From Paenibacillus taiwanensis DSM 18679 (lineage in GTDB: Bacteria; Bacillota; Bacilli; Paenibacillales; Paenibacillaceae), in NCBI RefSeq assembly GCF_000425125.1, contig NZ_KE384307.1, forward strand, positions 532,508 through 596,507: DNA of 64,000 nt, written 5' to 3'. Position 1 is the first letter of the stretch. Each line of letters begins with the position of its first letter. Below, in pieces: positions 14,183-19,331 of this stretch. A model generated the notes under the pieces. It did not search any database and had not been told where the DNA came from. It worked only from the letters and a program-made list of their open reading frames with translations. The translations under genes and the position numbers were made by a program.

Positions 14183-14369
14183 CTATTTATACGCCAAGAT
14201 GATATATAGCTAAACTTCTGCTAAAGCCTGATAATGACAGCGCCTAGGAGCAGGAAAAAGCGCTTACTATATCGAAATAATTACAAATGAATGGTTATAA
14301 CCATGCGGTCTGCCGCCGATAGCACAAAGGATGCGGCTGTCGTTCACAGTAAGAAGGAGGACGAGTATA
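14183..14369. other. Intergenic region before zapA
   Basis: With the pheT terminator this makes a 318-nt gene-free stretch. I see no RNA gene or convincing conserved motif in it. It ends in a strong ribosome site (AAGGAGGA) for the ZapA-type gene. Confidence 0.5.
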
Positions 14370-17300
14370 ATGACCTCACCAGACAAGCACCGGGTCACTG
14401 TTGAAATATATGGAACACAATATAAGATTGTAGGTACAACTAGCAAGGAATATATGCGGAATATTGCAGCTATTGTGGATGAGCATATGAGAACGATTGC
14501 GGAAGGGAATCCGCGGCTTGATATACCACGGATTGCGGTGTTGTCCGCCGTGCACATCGCTGAGCAGGTACAGCGTATTAAGGATGAGCAGGCACGTCTT
14601 GCGAATGAAATTCAAGTGATCGAAAAAGAGAAGCAAGCAGCAGAAGCTTCTAAGCAAAGCTTAGAGTCGCAGCTTCAAGCTCTGACCGCTAGTCATGAGG
14701 AAGAGTTGAAGCAAGAGCGCGAGGCGAACCATAACGAGGTTCAGCGTCTTCGTGAAGCTGAGCAGCGGTCAACAGCGGCATTGCAGCAGGAACAAGCAGC
14801 GAAGAAAGCGGCTGATGAGCATGTTTTGAAGCTGAAAGAGCAGGTGAAGGAGGCTGAACGCCGTGTTCAGGCGTGCACGGGACGTGAGCAGGATTTGAAG
14901 CGTCGCCTTCAGGATAGTGAGCAGAAGCTAGTTCGTTTACATGAACAAGTGGAGAAGCAGAAAAAAGAGCACGAGCAGGAACTTCATGCTCGTGTTCAAG
15001 CGATGACAGAAGATCATAAGCAGGCTTTGCACAGGCTAAAGAGTGAGCATGAGGCTGCGGTGAAGACAGCTTCTTTAAAGCTTACGACGGAGCTGCAACA
15101 GTCGGAAGCAAAATATGCCGCTGCAATTAAGCAGGCGGAAATGAAGCAAGCTGAGTTAACGAAGCAAGGTGAAGCCAAGTTGGCCGAGGCTTTAAAGCAA
15201 GCAGAGGCTAAACATGTCGATGCCATGAAACAATCGACGATAAAGCACGATGCGAGCTTAAAGCAAGCGCGCGAACAGCACCAAAGTATCGTCAAGCAGC
15301 TACAAGACAAGCACAGTGCTGCAATAAAGGAGTTGCAAGAGAAGTTACAGCAAGAACTGGCCTTGAAATCTAAGCGCGTTGCCGAATTGGAAGCAGAACA
15401 TCAAAGTGTCGTAGAGAATCTTAATAAGCAGCTAGAGGAGCGGACCGCGACTTTGGAAGCTCGTCATCAGGAGGACATGGAAACGATGTCTGCACTGCAT
15501 GAGGAAGCTATCGAGACACTTAAGATGACCCGTGATGCCCACGAAGAGCGTTTGCGCGCAGGTTGGGAAGAGCAGTCAAAGCAAGCGGATAGCCGTATTC
15601 GCCAGCTTGAGGGCCATCTAGGAAGAGCGGAAGAGCTGGATCGTGCTCGTCAAGTCGAGATGGAGCGGCTTATGCGTGCTAGAGATGAAGCTATTGCAGA
15701 AGCTGAGCAGCATTTGGCTACAGTACAACAATTACAGGATAACCTTACGTTACAAATAGAAGCAGTGGAACAGTCTAAACAAGATCGTGTTACTTATGAA
15801 GCGCTTATCCAAGAGCTGGAAGAACAGTGCAATCAGTTAACGAGTGAGCAAGAAGCGACCAAATTGGACAAGAAGCAGCTGGAGGAGCAATGTGATGCTC
15901 TACAGCAAGAGGAGCGGCAGACTCGCAAGCAGCTTGCTGAGCTAAAGCAAAAGTTGGAACTGCTGCAAGCTATTGAGGCTCAAGCCAAGGAAGAGCTGGA
16001 GCTAGCACAACTGGAGTCCGATGCTATTTTGCAATCGGAACGTGAAGCCCATACGATGGCTCTGGAGGAGCAGGCTCAGTCGCTAAAGCAGCAGTGGCAG
16101 GCAGAGCAGGAAGAGCATCTGGCTCAAATGTTGCAGCTTGAACGTGAAACTCATGCTAAGGCGATGGCGGAGCAAGCCGAATCTCTCAAGCAAGATTGGC
16201 AAGTGATGCATGAACAGGAACTGAACGCTCTCCGCAAGGAGCTGGATCAACGTTTGCAGCAGGCTGAGGCCGAGGCGAACGAACGGATGCAGGAAGTGCT
16301 GCGTGAGGCGGACAAGCGTGCTCAGGCGGCGGAAGCGGAAACAGGTGAACTGCTTCAATTAGTAGAAGCCGAAGCAACTGAGCGTCTTAAGGCGGTTGAG
16401 GCTGAGGCAAATGAACGTATCCAGGCTGTAGAAGCGGCTGCTAATGAGCGTATTCAAGCAGTAGAAGCTAATGCACATGACCGGATTCAGACAGCGGAAA
16501 CTGCTGCCGATGAACGGATTCAGGTGGCACTGGAGCTGGCTGATTCTCGTGTTGCAGCTGCGGAAGCACTTGCTGAAGAACGTGCACACTATGCAGAGGT
16601 GTCACTTGAAGCACAGATGAAGTCGATGGAACTAGAAGCTAATGAGCGCATTCAATCAACAGAAGCGATGATGAATGAGTTGGTGCAAGCATCAGAAGAA
16701 GCTGCAAATCAACGGGTGCAGGCGGCAAATGCAGCGGCAAACGAGCGGATTCAAACGATCGAAGAGACGATGCAGGCGCAGCTTGTAGCAGCACAACAGT
16801 TAGCAGATGAGCGGATAGCAGCGATTGAGAGCGAGGCAAACAGACGTGTGGGCGACGCCCTAAAAGATGCTGAACAGCGTGTACAGCAGTTGCAGAATGC
16901 CCTTGAAGAAGCCACTCAACGTGAACTTGAGGCTAAAGAGGAAGCGAGTCTGCACATTAAGGCGGTTCAGGAAGAGATTGAAAAACAACTGCACGAGATG
17001 GAGCTTGAGCGGAGTAAACAATTCCAAGCATTGCAGGAAGAGGCTAATGCGCTGTTGAAGCTTGCAGGAGAAGAAGCGGAGCAGCAAGTAAAAGCGGTGC
17101 AGGCTGCTGCTGAGATCAAAGTAGCAGAAGCCAACAAGCAGGCGGAAATACGTGTAAGAGCGTTCCAAGAAGAGTATGAAGGCAAAATAAAGGGTCTTAT
17201 GACAAGCGTGGATGAGCAAACACTTCAGTCCAAGCAAATGCAATCAGACCTTCAGGAGCAATGGGAAAAGCGCGAGCAGGCATGGTTGTTGGAAAAACAA

Positions 17301-17660
17301 ACAATAGAGCAAGAGACAGCATGTCATCTGTCTGTTATTGCAGATGCAGAGCAGACGAACGAACAGCTCCTAGCTGAAGAAAGCCGTCTGCGTCAGGAAT
17401 TGGCGGAGCTGCGTCAAGCGTTGGACGAAGCAGCCGCATCGACTACGCTAGTGTCCGATGCAAGCTCGGAAGAAATGGTGATTATTCAAGAGCAATTTGA
17501 GATGATGTCGCACCAGTTCCGATTGTCGCAGCTTGAGCGAGACATGGAGCGAGCGAAGGCGCAGCAGATAGAGGAAGAGTACAACAAGCTAAAAGAGGAA
17601 TATGGCAAGCTTCAATCGGAGTTTAACGAATGGCTGGAGCTTATCGAACAAGGCAGTTAG
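14370..17660 (+). CDS. zapA: Giant ZapA-domain coiled-coil protein
   Basis: A 1,096-residue protein starting at ATG 14370 behind AGAAGGAGGACG; codons upstream of this ATG are open but lack such a site. Residues about 1-75 are a clear ZapA domain (HRVTVEIYGTQYKIVG, EYMRNIAAIVDEHM, RIAVLSAVHIAEQVQRI), which in other bacteria binds and bundles FtsZ. Normal ZapA has 80-110 residues. Here about 1,000 further residues rich in Glu, Gln, Ala, Lys and Arg follow, with almost no proline or glycine. They include 11-residue repeats at about 245-332 and 634-941 and a duplicated segment of about 34 residues near 555-625. No signal peptide or membrane helix is seen. The next gene is cvpA, as in Bacillus, which supports true zapA synteny. 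A function in division is inferred from the head domain and synteny. Confidence 0.88.
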   Translation: MTSPDKHRVTVEIYGTQYKIVGTTSKEYMRNIAAIVDEHMRTIAEGNPRLDIPRIAVLSAVHIAEQVQRIKDEQARLANEIQVIEKEKQAAEASKQSLESQLQALTASHEEELKQEREANHNEVQRLREAEQRSTAALQQEQAAKKAADEHVLKLKEQVKEAERRVQACTGREQDLKRRLQDSEQKLVRLHEQVEKQKKEHEQELHARVQAMTEDHKQALHRLKSEHEAAVKTASLKLTTELQQSEAKYAAAIKQAEMKQAELTKQGEAKLAEALKQAEAKHVDAMKQSTIKHDASLKQAREQHQSIVKQLQDKHSAAIKELQEKLQQELALKSKRVAELEAEHQSVVENLNKQLEERTATLEARHQEDMETMSALHEEAIETLKMTRDAHEERLRAGWEEQSKQADSRIRQLEGHLGRAEELDRARQVEMERLMRARDEAIAEAEQHLATVQQLQDNLTLQIEAVEQSKQDRVTYEALIQELEEQCNQLTSEQEATKLDKKQLEEQCDALQQEERQTRKQLAELKQKLELLQAIEAQAKEELELAQLESDAILQSEREAHTMALEEQAQSLKQQWQAEQEEHLAQMLQLERETHAKAMAEQAESLKQDWQVMHEQELNALRKELDQRLQQAEAEANERMQEVLREADKRAQAAEAETGELLQLVEAEATERLKAVEAEANERIQAVEAAANERIQAVEANAHDRIQTAETAADERIQVALELADSRVAAAEALAEERAHYAEVSLEAQMKSMELEANERIQSTEAMMNELVQASEEAANQRVQAANAAANERIQTIEETMQAQLVAAQQLADERIAAIESEANRRVGDALKDAEQRVQQLQNALEEATQRELEAKEEASLHIKAVQEEIEKQLHEMELERSKQFQALQEEANALLKLAGEEAEQQVKAVQAAAEIKVAEANKQAEIRVRAFQEEYEGKIKGLMTSVDEQTLQSKQMQSDLQEQWEKREQAWLLEKQTIEQETACHLSVIADAEQTNEQLLAEESRLRQELAELRQALDEAAASTTLVSDASSEEMVIIQEQFEMMSHQFRLSQLERDMERAKAQQIEEEYNKLKEEYGKLQSEFNEWLELIEQGS
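15102..15365 (+). repeat. Hendecad repeat array 1 inside giant zapA
   Basis: Eight consecutive 11-residue units (residues 245-332), for example SEAKYAAAIKQ, GEAKLAEALKQ and AEAKHVDAMKQ. Each unit is 33 nt. The same register appears to continue, more loosely, for several units on both sides. DNA copies are diverged, so this is an old expansion. Confidence 0.8.
16269..17192 (+). repeat. Hendecad repeat array 2 inside giant zapA (28 units)
   Basis: Twenty-eight uninterrupted units of exactly 11 residues (residues 634-941, 924 nt). Examples are AEANERIQAVE, AAANERIQAVE, TAADERIQVAL and QLADERIAAIE. The consensus in the first two thirds is roughly x-x-A-[ND]-E-R-[IV]-Q-x-x-E. No insertion or deletion breaks the register. 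Hendecads are known to form right-handed or nearly straight coiled coils. Confidence 0.85.
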
Positions 17661-18350: not shown

Positions 18351-18728
18351 TTATTCGACGATGAGTTTAGCTGTCATTTCTTTGTGGCCTGGTCCGCACA
18401 TAATAGTGCATTTGAATTCGTAGGTGCCTGTTTGTGTAGGAGTAACCACTTGGCTGGTCTGATTCGGAGTTAATTCAAGGCCGATATCTTTAATTTTGAT
18501 ACCGTGATTGCCGGAAGATTCAAGTATGAATTTAACCGGCTCACCGGCCTTCACGCGATACTCAGGCTGTTCGAATTTATAATTGGTCGCTTTAATAATA
18601 ATTTCTTTAGCCGCAAATGCAGGCTCGCCGGCTCCCTGTGTGGGACTCCCTTGTTGATTGCTTCCGCATGCAACCATAACGCATGCAAGCGCAAGCATAG
18701 CTGCAGCGAGTGCAATAGGTCGTTTCAT
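18351..18728 (-). CDS. Cupredoxin-domain lipoprotein with CuA-like copper site
   Basis: A predicted lipoprotein of 125 residues. The start at 18728 has GAGGAGG 10 nt upstream. The signal sequence ends in the lipobox VMVAC, placing the mature protein on the outer face of the membrane. A cupredoxin beta-sandwich follows, with GNHGIKI (candidate His ligand) and the C-terminal loop CTIMCGPGHKEM, which has the spacing C-x3-C-x3-H-x2-M of the CuA centre of cytochrome c oxidase subunit II. The acidic residue usual between the two cysteines is absent. There is no transmembrane hairpin or other oxidase subunit here, so a copper carrier or electron-transfer role is inferred. Confidence 0.82.
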   Translation of the reverse strand: MKRPIALAAAMLALACVMVACGSNQQGSPTQGAGEPAFAAKEIIIKATNYKFEQPEYRVKAGEPVKFILESSGNHGIKIKDIGLELTPNQTSQVVTPTQTGTYEFKCTIMCGPGHKEMTAKLIVE

Positions 18729-18965
18729 AACTGCAAATCCTCCTCGTAGTTCACGACGCATTATTACGTGTGTATTTTGAACACTGGTAAGTGTCATGAA
18801 GATAACTATACGCAACGGAAAATGCAATTCCTGTCGTTTTACCGAAGTGAGATGTGACGGTTATGTGACTTTTGGGACGCTACAGCTATGTTTTGCGTTA
18901 TGAATAGATAGCTGATCCTTTCGGCATTCGATTACAACATATCGTTTGAGCTACAAACCGAACCG

Positions 18966-19331
18966 TTATGCTCGATCAGAGCTGCGGCCAGCTTCAAACG
19001 GAGTAGCAATCGGAATAAACAAGTCGATTAATCCGACGACCAACGCCGCCAGTAAGGCACCAATAATGGATACGGAAACGCCACTGACAAAGAACTGAGC
19101 GACATAGATAACAACGGCGCTAGCCAGAAAGCCAACGATTCCGCGGCCAAAAGGGGTTACGCGTTTGCCGAAGATGCCTTCTACAATCCATCCGAACAAC
19201 GCGATAACTAAAGCCAGAACTAATGCGCTCCAGAAACCGCCTACTGTAAAGGCGGGTACAAGCCAAGCCGTAACCATAAGTACGATGGCTGCTACGATAA
19301 AACGGACTACATGACCGAGAAAACTCATCAT
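18966..19331 (-). CDS. Phage holin family (PF04020-like) membrane protein
   Basis: A 121-residue membrane protein with about four hydrophobic helices (about 6-26, 32-50, 63-83 and 85-107) and a polar C-terminus. The pattern matches the family annotated as Mycobacterium phage holin superfamily IV. In Firmicutes these are ordinary chromosomal membrane proteins of unknown role. AGGAGG lies just before the double ATG. No phage genes are near it, so the family name should not be taken as prophage evidence. Confidence 0.75.
   Translation of the reverse strand: MMSFLGHVVRFIVAAIVLMVTAWLVPAFTVGGFWSALVLALVIALFGWIVEGIFGKRVTPFGRGIVGFLASAVVIYVAQFFVSGVSVSIIGALLAALVVGLIDLFIPIATPFEAGRSSDRA

Follow-up and report, generated by a model that had tools for sequence, protein, structure and literature searches.

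A long ZapA with a predicted coiled-coil rod between its head and a conserved C-terminal cap, spread through the order Paenibacillales

In the order Paenibacillales, the cell-division protein ZapA occurs in an expanded form in which a ZapA head is followed by a long helical tail that ends in a near-invariant cap. We analyzed it starting from one gene in a 64,000-nucleotide stretch of the genome of Paenibacillus taiwanensis DSM 18679 (the window) and followed it over genus, family, and order. The rod is under purifying selection and changes its length in coiled-coil steps, and the cap is related to the end of the C-terminal helix of ordinary ZapA. The reading that explains these features best, which we judge about equally likely to be right or wrong, is that long ZapA acts as an FtsZ cross-linker of long reach, in which the heads bind FtsZ and two dimers are joined through the cap.

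The long zapA frame runs without interruption on the forward strand from the ATG at 14370 to 17660 and encodes 1,096 residues, confirming the single unbroken frame of an earlier sequence-only reading (Table 1). That reading had also placed the gene with cvpA and mutS2, which is correct, and the complete order is pheS-pheT-zapA-cvpA-mutS2; in Bacillus subtilis, zapA presumably has the same placing beside pheT, cvpA, and mutS2. In the window cvpA and mutS2 are separated by two genes of opposite strand, and the true start of cvpA probably lies after 17660. Since the long zapA is the sole PF05164 match in this genome, it replaces the ordinary gene, as had been suggested; a search for a second, ordinary zapA found none, and each of the 19 genus members studied likewise carries one long ZapA per genome (19/19). 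An artefact, in which a frameshift joined two genes, was rejected: the frame is open in relatives too, and the rod is under purifying selection.

Table 1. Features of the zapA locus in the window (residues refer to the long ZapA)
Feature	Position	Strand	Basis or remark
Shine-Dalgarno AAGGAGG for zapA	14354..14360	+	strong; sequence
Long zapA, 1,096 aa + stop	14370..17660	+	frame, PF05164
ZapA head, residues 1-75	14370..14594	+	PF05164; PDB 2mmv
Predicted coiled-coil rod, residues about 76-1022	14595..17435	+	hydrophobic period; low-confidence model
Hendecad array, residues 245-332	15102..15365	+	lag-11 identity
Genus-specific conserved mid-rod block, residues 409-441	15594..15692	+	19/19 genus members
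Main hendecad array, single register, residues 634-842	16269..16895	+	lag-11 periodicity
Weaker hendecads, residues about 858-930	16941..17159	+	follow 3-residue phase shift
Probable helix break ahead of tip, residues about 1019-1032	17424..17465	+	Ser/Thr/Asp-rich; low-confidence model
Pre-cap block QEQFEMMSHQFRLSQLERDME, residues 1040-1060	17487..17549	+	conserved in genus
C-terminal cap LKEEYGKLQSEFNEWLELI, residues 1074-1092	17589..17645	+	98/99 complete proteins
cvpA frame as listed, Colicin_V PF02674	17602..18291	+	frame, Pfam

The N-terminus is a normal ZapA domain, as first read, matching PF05164 with 37.8 bits (cut-off 23.8) and the ZapA structure PDB 2mmv at 6.8e-17. A Pfam scan of the whole protein returned this domain alone, with neither a DivIVA-like N-terminal domain nor EzrA (PF06160). 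The tail past residue 75 contains no proline and 12 glycines and is predicted to be helical, with a best hydrophobic period of 3.56-3.66 in seven of eight stretches; the eighth, residues 481-633, has no clear peak. Fully helical, this tail of ~1,020 residues would span about 150 nm, in agreement with the length proposed before.

An 11-residue periodicity lies far above chance in two parts of the tail. Identity at lag 11 is 0.38 for residues 245-332 against 0.11 shuffled (z 7.7), which upholds the array seen there, and 0.33 for residues 634-941, where shuffled sequences average 0.12 (z 11.7). With about one third identity at this lag, the units are not the perfect repeats that had been described, and the 28 units counted in 634-941 do not share one register. 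A single register spans about 19 units, to about residue 842; past a phase shift of 3 residues, the array goes on from about 858 with about seven weaker units. Tandem Repeats Finder reported no DNA tandem repeats at score 50. A full-length structure model (mean pLDDT 64.8) failed to recover the head strands, broke the long helix at four places, and left part of the array 245-332 unstructured; it is too poor for use and lends the continuous rod no support. The model of a shorter relative consists of two long helices (pLDDT 76.6). Towards the tip, the low-confidence model puts a helix break at 1023-1032, and the following block QEQFEMMSHQFRLSQLERDME is conserved in the genus and in part in the family.

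The long form is not a local trait: comparing zapA length across relatives found it in 19 of 19 genus members, and most of the order has an expanded ZapA. PF05164 was matched in at least 293 of 295 family genomes, one of which (G033) has two matches among those listed. A cap profile found a match in all 149 sampled genomes of the order (E<=0.1), in 137 of them within the ZapA frame, as judged for 133 by equal length of the best-cap and ZapA frames and for 4 more, in which PF05164 had no match, by direct reading of head, rod, and cap. Head and cap fall in separate frames or contigs in 11 of the 149. Four of these have runs of N between the two, and in the other seven head and cap are on different contigs; the head frame runs to the contig end in three of the seven (G341, G320, G344), and the remainder (G324, G352, G353, G368) are judged by the contig change alone. 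One genome, G296, has a partial cap match (0.0023) inside its ZapA frame. Among 80 named loci, six are missing the in-frame cap, five because they end early or out of frame and one at a contig end. Direct reading covered 101 proteins including that of the window, from genomes picked non-randomly for diversity and sister pairs; excluding two cut by contigs (G020, G344), the 99 complete proteins range from 123 to 1,740 residues, with tails across the order of about 50 to over 1,600.

All but one of these 99 proteins terminate in the cap, EEYxKLQxEYNEWIELI. The exception is the 123-residue protein of G296, which is without the NEW motif and is excluded from the cap alignment count, the matrix ranking, and the tail proline count. 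For each protein, all tail windows were ranked with a matrix derived from 16 segments of short ZapAs from other orders. The cap in its expected register came first for 87 of the 98 proteins, against 0.25 expected, and not for the other 11; 60 runs with column-shuffled matrices gave a mean of 0.28 and a maximum of 5. A profile-profile comparison of the cap with the end of the ordinary ZapA helix reached E 2.2e-5 and a probability of 76%; none of six controls exceeded 0.8%. The elongated forms G418 and G450 were omitted from both calculations, and misread reference frames (L051, L052, L054, L055, L056) and duplicates from the latter. Run over 183 genomes outside the family at E<=0.01, the cap profile, which was built without the short ZapAs of other orders, matched in 22, two of the matches being seen to be zapA and these alone extending to the profile's last positions, and missed the ordinary zapA end in 181. 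It is thus mainly the matrix ranking and the profile-profile comparison that suggest that the cap, now at the far tip, derives from the end of the C-terminal helix of ordinary ZapA, displaced outwards. Because the cap matches that helix's end, the rod is intercalary, lying inside ZapA's own last helix, and not fused onto ZapA as initially described.

This origin is what points to a cross-linker. According to three papers, ZapA tetramerises through its C-terminal helices, which is needed for bundling and function (PMC12216130, PMC12754632, PMC7246612). As the cap corresponds to the end of the helix that joins dimers in E. coli, a bipolar FtsZ cross-linker becomes the most likely arrangement. 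We infer from homology that the head dimerises and binds FtsZ like other ZapAs, and the periodicity suggests that the two chains of the dimer would continue as a long coiled-coil rod. The caps may then join two dimers antiparallel, as the E. coli helix does, holding head pairs about 150 nm apart with the rods fully overlapped and up to about 300 nm apart with only the caps overlapped, where ordinary ZapA would keep them a short distance apart. Such a reach would exceed the Z-ring width of 80-100 nm, as cited in PMC12754632, so that a cross-linker acting only within the ring is awkward.

The same reach would suit an outward link. The Asn and Trp of the cap's NEW motif occur in none of 18 ordinary ZapA segments at that place, and therefore a different partner may have been acquired by the cap. 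Long ZapA could then be a tether, a parallel dimer with its head on FtsZ and its cap docked on a membrane protein, the nucleoid, or a later part of the divisome, comparable to E. coli ZapA, which is linked to the chromosome terminus via ZapB, a coiled-coil protein, and MatP. That system also extends Z-ring connections by coiled coil, but with separate proteins. The mid-rod block resembles a further docking site: 24-33 of its 33 residues are identical in all 19 genus members, and the best match among 82 other proteins scanned is 14/33. However, the relation of the cap to ZapA's own helix favours ZapA-ZapA joining, and no second protein of the window's genome carries the cap, its lone match being zapA. 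On this balance we regard a tether as rather unlikely, yet a serious contender.

EzrA, a long helical FtsZ regulator of Bacilli from a different family, bears on the same question. With the best 6-8 of 20 candidates scored per genome, PF06160 exceeded the cut-off in 17 of 149 order genomes, at best with 71.9 bits and in other long frames, and at E<=0.001 it had no match in the window's genome; elsewhere in the class, most above-cut-off genomes exceed 110 bits. EzrA thus seems not convincingly present in the order, which would fit a tether. Against this, families outside the order that have no EzrA among the matches listed keep a short ZapA, so its absence fails to explain the rod, and EzrA replacement as the cause was set aside as a weak correlate only.

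The evolution of the rod informs us on whether its length matters. Its dN/dS is 0.08-0.18 in ten pairs, which reuse one genome (G005), indicating purifying selection, and 0.13 for the window's rod against a relative (G014). Of 52 indels, counted after dropping one with poor flanks, 21 are multiples of 11 residues where 4.7 are expected (p 1.6e-9), a p-value that assumes uniform sizes and comes from same-clade pairs that are partly dependent and from alignments of self-similar repeats that may favour 11s; of the 40 indels up to 40 residues, 32 are sums of 7s and 11s. The rod therefore changes length in coiled-coil quanta with its register kept. Within one genus ZapA spans 614 to 1,612 residues, and the arms flanking the mid-rod block change length independently of each other (rho -0.18, p 0.46), which led us to reject a ruler of fixed length. 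These two observations would fit near-neutral elongation, in which the helix tolerates the growth and shrinkage of repeats and nothing but head and cap is important, and the register-keeping indels could in part mirror repeat mutation. The low dN/dS, the absence of proline from 81 of 98 tails, and the fact that most of the order has kept an expanded ZapA speak against such drift, which we consider very improbable.

Rods of this kind also recall Scy and FilP of Streptomyces, division proteins that, like long ZapA, combine a small head with a hendecad rod. According to PMC9858780, Scy has alanine-rich hendecad rods of more than 1,000 residues, FilP is a cytoskeletal protein implicated in division, and lengths in the group run from <200 to >1,000. 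Long ZapA might by analogy bundle side by side into an FtsZ-anchored cytoskeletal mesh. Scy and FilP differ in being actinobacterial and in their DivIVA-like head, which Pfam did not find here, and the rods of sister species diverge and change length so rapidly that fixed lateral packing is disfavoured; we hold such a scaffold to be improbable.

Two of 20 genomes fetched from other orders of the class have ZapAs with moderate helical extensions, of 207 and 241 residues. Two 666-residue frames among the matches listed elsewhere in the phylum turned out to be 107 residues on direct reading, and of four frames of 248-354 residues listed in one family, the two that were read owe their extra length to glycine/proline-rich sequence, which is not coil. 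The uncharacterised PDB 3hnw (138 residues) has a ZapA-like head, and the head-profile match to its sequence (0.0025) extends into a helical-looking stretch after the head. Ordinary ZapA (PF05164; PDB 2mmv, 86 residues; 1t3u/1w2e) shares the head, the single copy, and the C-terminal helix end, whereas long ZapA, far beyond the usual size of about 80-110 residues, has a rod of tens to about 1,600 residues between head and helix end, and its cap carries NEW. In the titles and abstracts listed by searches of one open-access library we found no description of a long or elongated ZapA, or of ZapA from Paenibacillus or Bacillales, experiments included.

ZapA is the textbook small bundler of FtsZ. 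Going beyond the cross-linker itself, we propose more tentatively, as a possibility short of a probable one, that ZapA forms an order-wide, two-ended strut whose long forms reach 100-300 nm or more, beyond the Z-ring width, with a length tuned by species in whole 11- or 7-residue turns while the ends stay fixed. If heads sit ten times or more further apart in this large and well-sampled group, Z-ring packing models built on a short, fixed spacing do not transfer to it. These proteins document how a coiled coil grows inside an existing helix by register-preserving steps, and the cap is a motif by which genomes of the order can be recognised. Natural variation in length from 123 to 1,740 residues, between two conserved ends, amounts to a ready experiment on how cross-linker length relates to ring width, treadmilling, and constriction, and, should the strut reading be true, these natural variants would offer a way to test how division responds to filament spacing.

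The window protein is a ZapA by its head, its gene place and its helix end, and its size falls outside the family range. ZapA (PF05164) is the sole Pfam family found in it (37.8 bits, Pfam scan), and the closest solved structure to the head is 2mmv, an 86-residue ZapA (6.8e-17). A strong ribosome-binding site precedes the start in the window sequence, and the gene order runs pheS, pheT, zapA, cvpA, two opposite-strand genes, mutS2. The synteny with cvpA and mutS2 noticed in the sequence-only reading is thus borne out, with those two genes separating cvpA from mutS2; in B. subtilis, polX lies between these two. The same reading took the long gene to replace ordinary zapA, and a profile search of the 5.25-Mb genome indeed returned it as the only PF05164 match.

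Features of the zapA locus in the window
Feature	Position	Strand	Remark
long zapA	14370-17660	+	1,096 residues; single reading frame
cupredoxin-like gene and 4-TM holin-superfamily gene	18351-19331	-	between cvpA and mutS2

Each of the 19 genus genomes has exactly one PF05164 match, in open frames of 639-1,616 codons, and matches occur in 293 of 295 family and 145 of 149 order genomes; read directly, the four order genomes missed also show a head, a rod and a cap. G033 is the sole family genome with two matches, among the matches listed. A profile of the cap, the conserved C-terminal motif, matches all 149 order genomes at E<=0.1 (148 at <=8.1e-6, G296 at 0.0023). Comparing lengths and places of the frames matched by PF05164 and by the cap profile put the best cap match inside the ZapA frame in 133 order genomes which, with the four read directly, makes 137. 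Eleven genomes have it in a different frame or on a different contig: assembly gaps (N) separate head from cap in four, and in seven the cap is on another contig, with three head frames shown reaching the contig end. At four loci (L270, L271, L272, L273) the N runs fall within the rod, so that draft assemblies may often interrupt long, repeat-rich zapA genes. The cap is in frame at 74 of 80 named Paenibacillus loci, including one whose record bears the label P. polymyxa ISL-58 (902 aa); at five of the other loci (L201, L208, L210, L219 and L241) the frame stops early or out of frame before it, through either an assembly error or real breakage. We read 101 order proteins directly, and the 99 complete ones span 123-1,740 aa (median 917).

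In the class and phylum outside this order, the matches listed are short ZapA frames, mostly of about 75-200. Exceptions read directly comprise frames that proved to be 107 aa, glycine/proline-rich extensions, and moderate, helical-looking extensions in two families outside the order (L142 in G418, 241 aa; L143 in G450, 207 aa). The last suggest that the helix was stretched more than once.

Rod dN/dS is 0.08-0.18 in ten pairs (71-1,115 codons, codon comparison); the rod is therefore translated and constrained. Its hendecads had been described as perfect and unbroken. Statistics uphold the periodicity, but one register holds only to about residue 842, followed by a 3-residue shift and weaker units. 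Across all rods, 583 windows of 110 residues have a clear peak, 330 at period 3.48-3.54 (heptads) and 152 at 3.64-3.68 (hendecads). Among 52 indels in 20 sister pairs, 21 are multiples of 11 (4.7 expected, p 1.6e-9) and 16 multiples of 7 (7.4 expected, p 0.002). Sizes of the form 7a+11b account for 32 of the 40 indels no longer than 40 residues (null 0.375). The rods thus vary freely in length but preserve their register, via selection or the mutation mode of repeats; near-neutral expansion of the rod is one of the less likely explanations. All 19 genus members share a 33-residue block (residues 409-441); the top-scoring match in 82 other proteins has 14/33 identities, and the flanking arms vary independently in length. 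Of 98 tails, 81 contain no proline at all, and the rare prolines in the others cluster 20-60 residues N-terminal of the cap Trp, a position hinting at a linker.

The near-invariant cap forms the C-terminus of 98 of the 99 complete proteins and is the same in a chain of 149 residues as in one of 1,740. Among 79 aligned, two Leu columns are conserved in 79, Trp and two Glu columns in 78, Tyr and Asn in 76, and Lys in 73. The last helix of ordinary ZapA ends in ADEYxKLxxEYExLxxLLE, and three sequence tests link the cap to it. With a matrix from 16 ordinary segments, the cap, in the expected register, outscores every other window of the tail in 87 of 98 proteins (chance expectation 0.25/98; shuffled-column maximum 5 in 60 runs). 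In six-frame whole-genome scans the cap profile, built without the short ZapAs, picks up the C-terminus of ordinary zapA in two genomes belonging to a different family. Outside the family it matches 22 of 183 genomes in total; in the other 20 the matches stop before the last profile positions, and none was seen to lie in zapA, and in the remaining genomes the ordinary end falls below threshold. Profile-profile comparison gives E 2.2e-5 (76%), six controls staying at <=0.8%. The simplest history is that insertions or tandem duplications made a coiled coil grow within the ZapA helix, displacing the original end outward.

The model of a 462-residue P. abyssi relative (pLDDT 76.6) has a ZapA head and helices at 51-176 and 198-461. 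That of the window protein is poor (pLDDT 64.8), with head strands lost and breaks at 253-290, 471-501, 703-715 and 1023-1032, and can be read as 'mostly helix', nothing more. If fully helical, its tail would measure about 151 nm (median of 99 proteins 125 nm, longest 247 nm).

For E. coli and relatives, three papers (PMC12216130, PMC12754632, PMC7246612) describe FtsZ bound by the ZapA head pair and two dimers joined antiparallel by their C-terminal helices; I83E in this coiled coil leaves dimers that neither bundle FtsZ nor complement. Because homology places the cap in the dimer-joining helix, long ZapA may well be a long-reach FtsZ cross-linker. The main rival, in which the protein acts as a tether to a different partner, is the less probable of the two; it draws on the reach, which exceeds the ring width, and on the novelty of the cap's Asn-Glu-Trp, whose Asn and Trp occur at their positions in 0 of 18 ordinary ZapA segments. 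Bundling of rods into a scaffold is also less likely. EzrA (PF06160), an FtsZ regulator common in other Bacilli (profile search of class genomes), has no convincing match in the 149 order genomes (best 71.9 bits; 6-8 of 20 candidates per genome scored).

The closest analogue for rod growth is Scy/FilP (PMC9858780), whose head, however, is of a different family. Long ZapA is undescribed within the open-access literature searched. Its natural length series makes the reach of a cross-linker directly testable.
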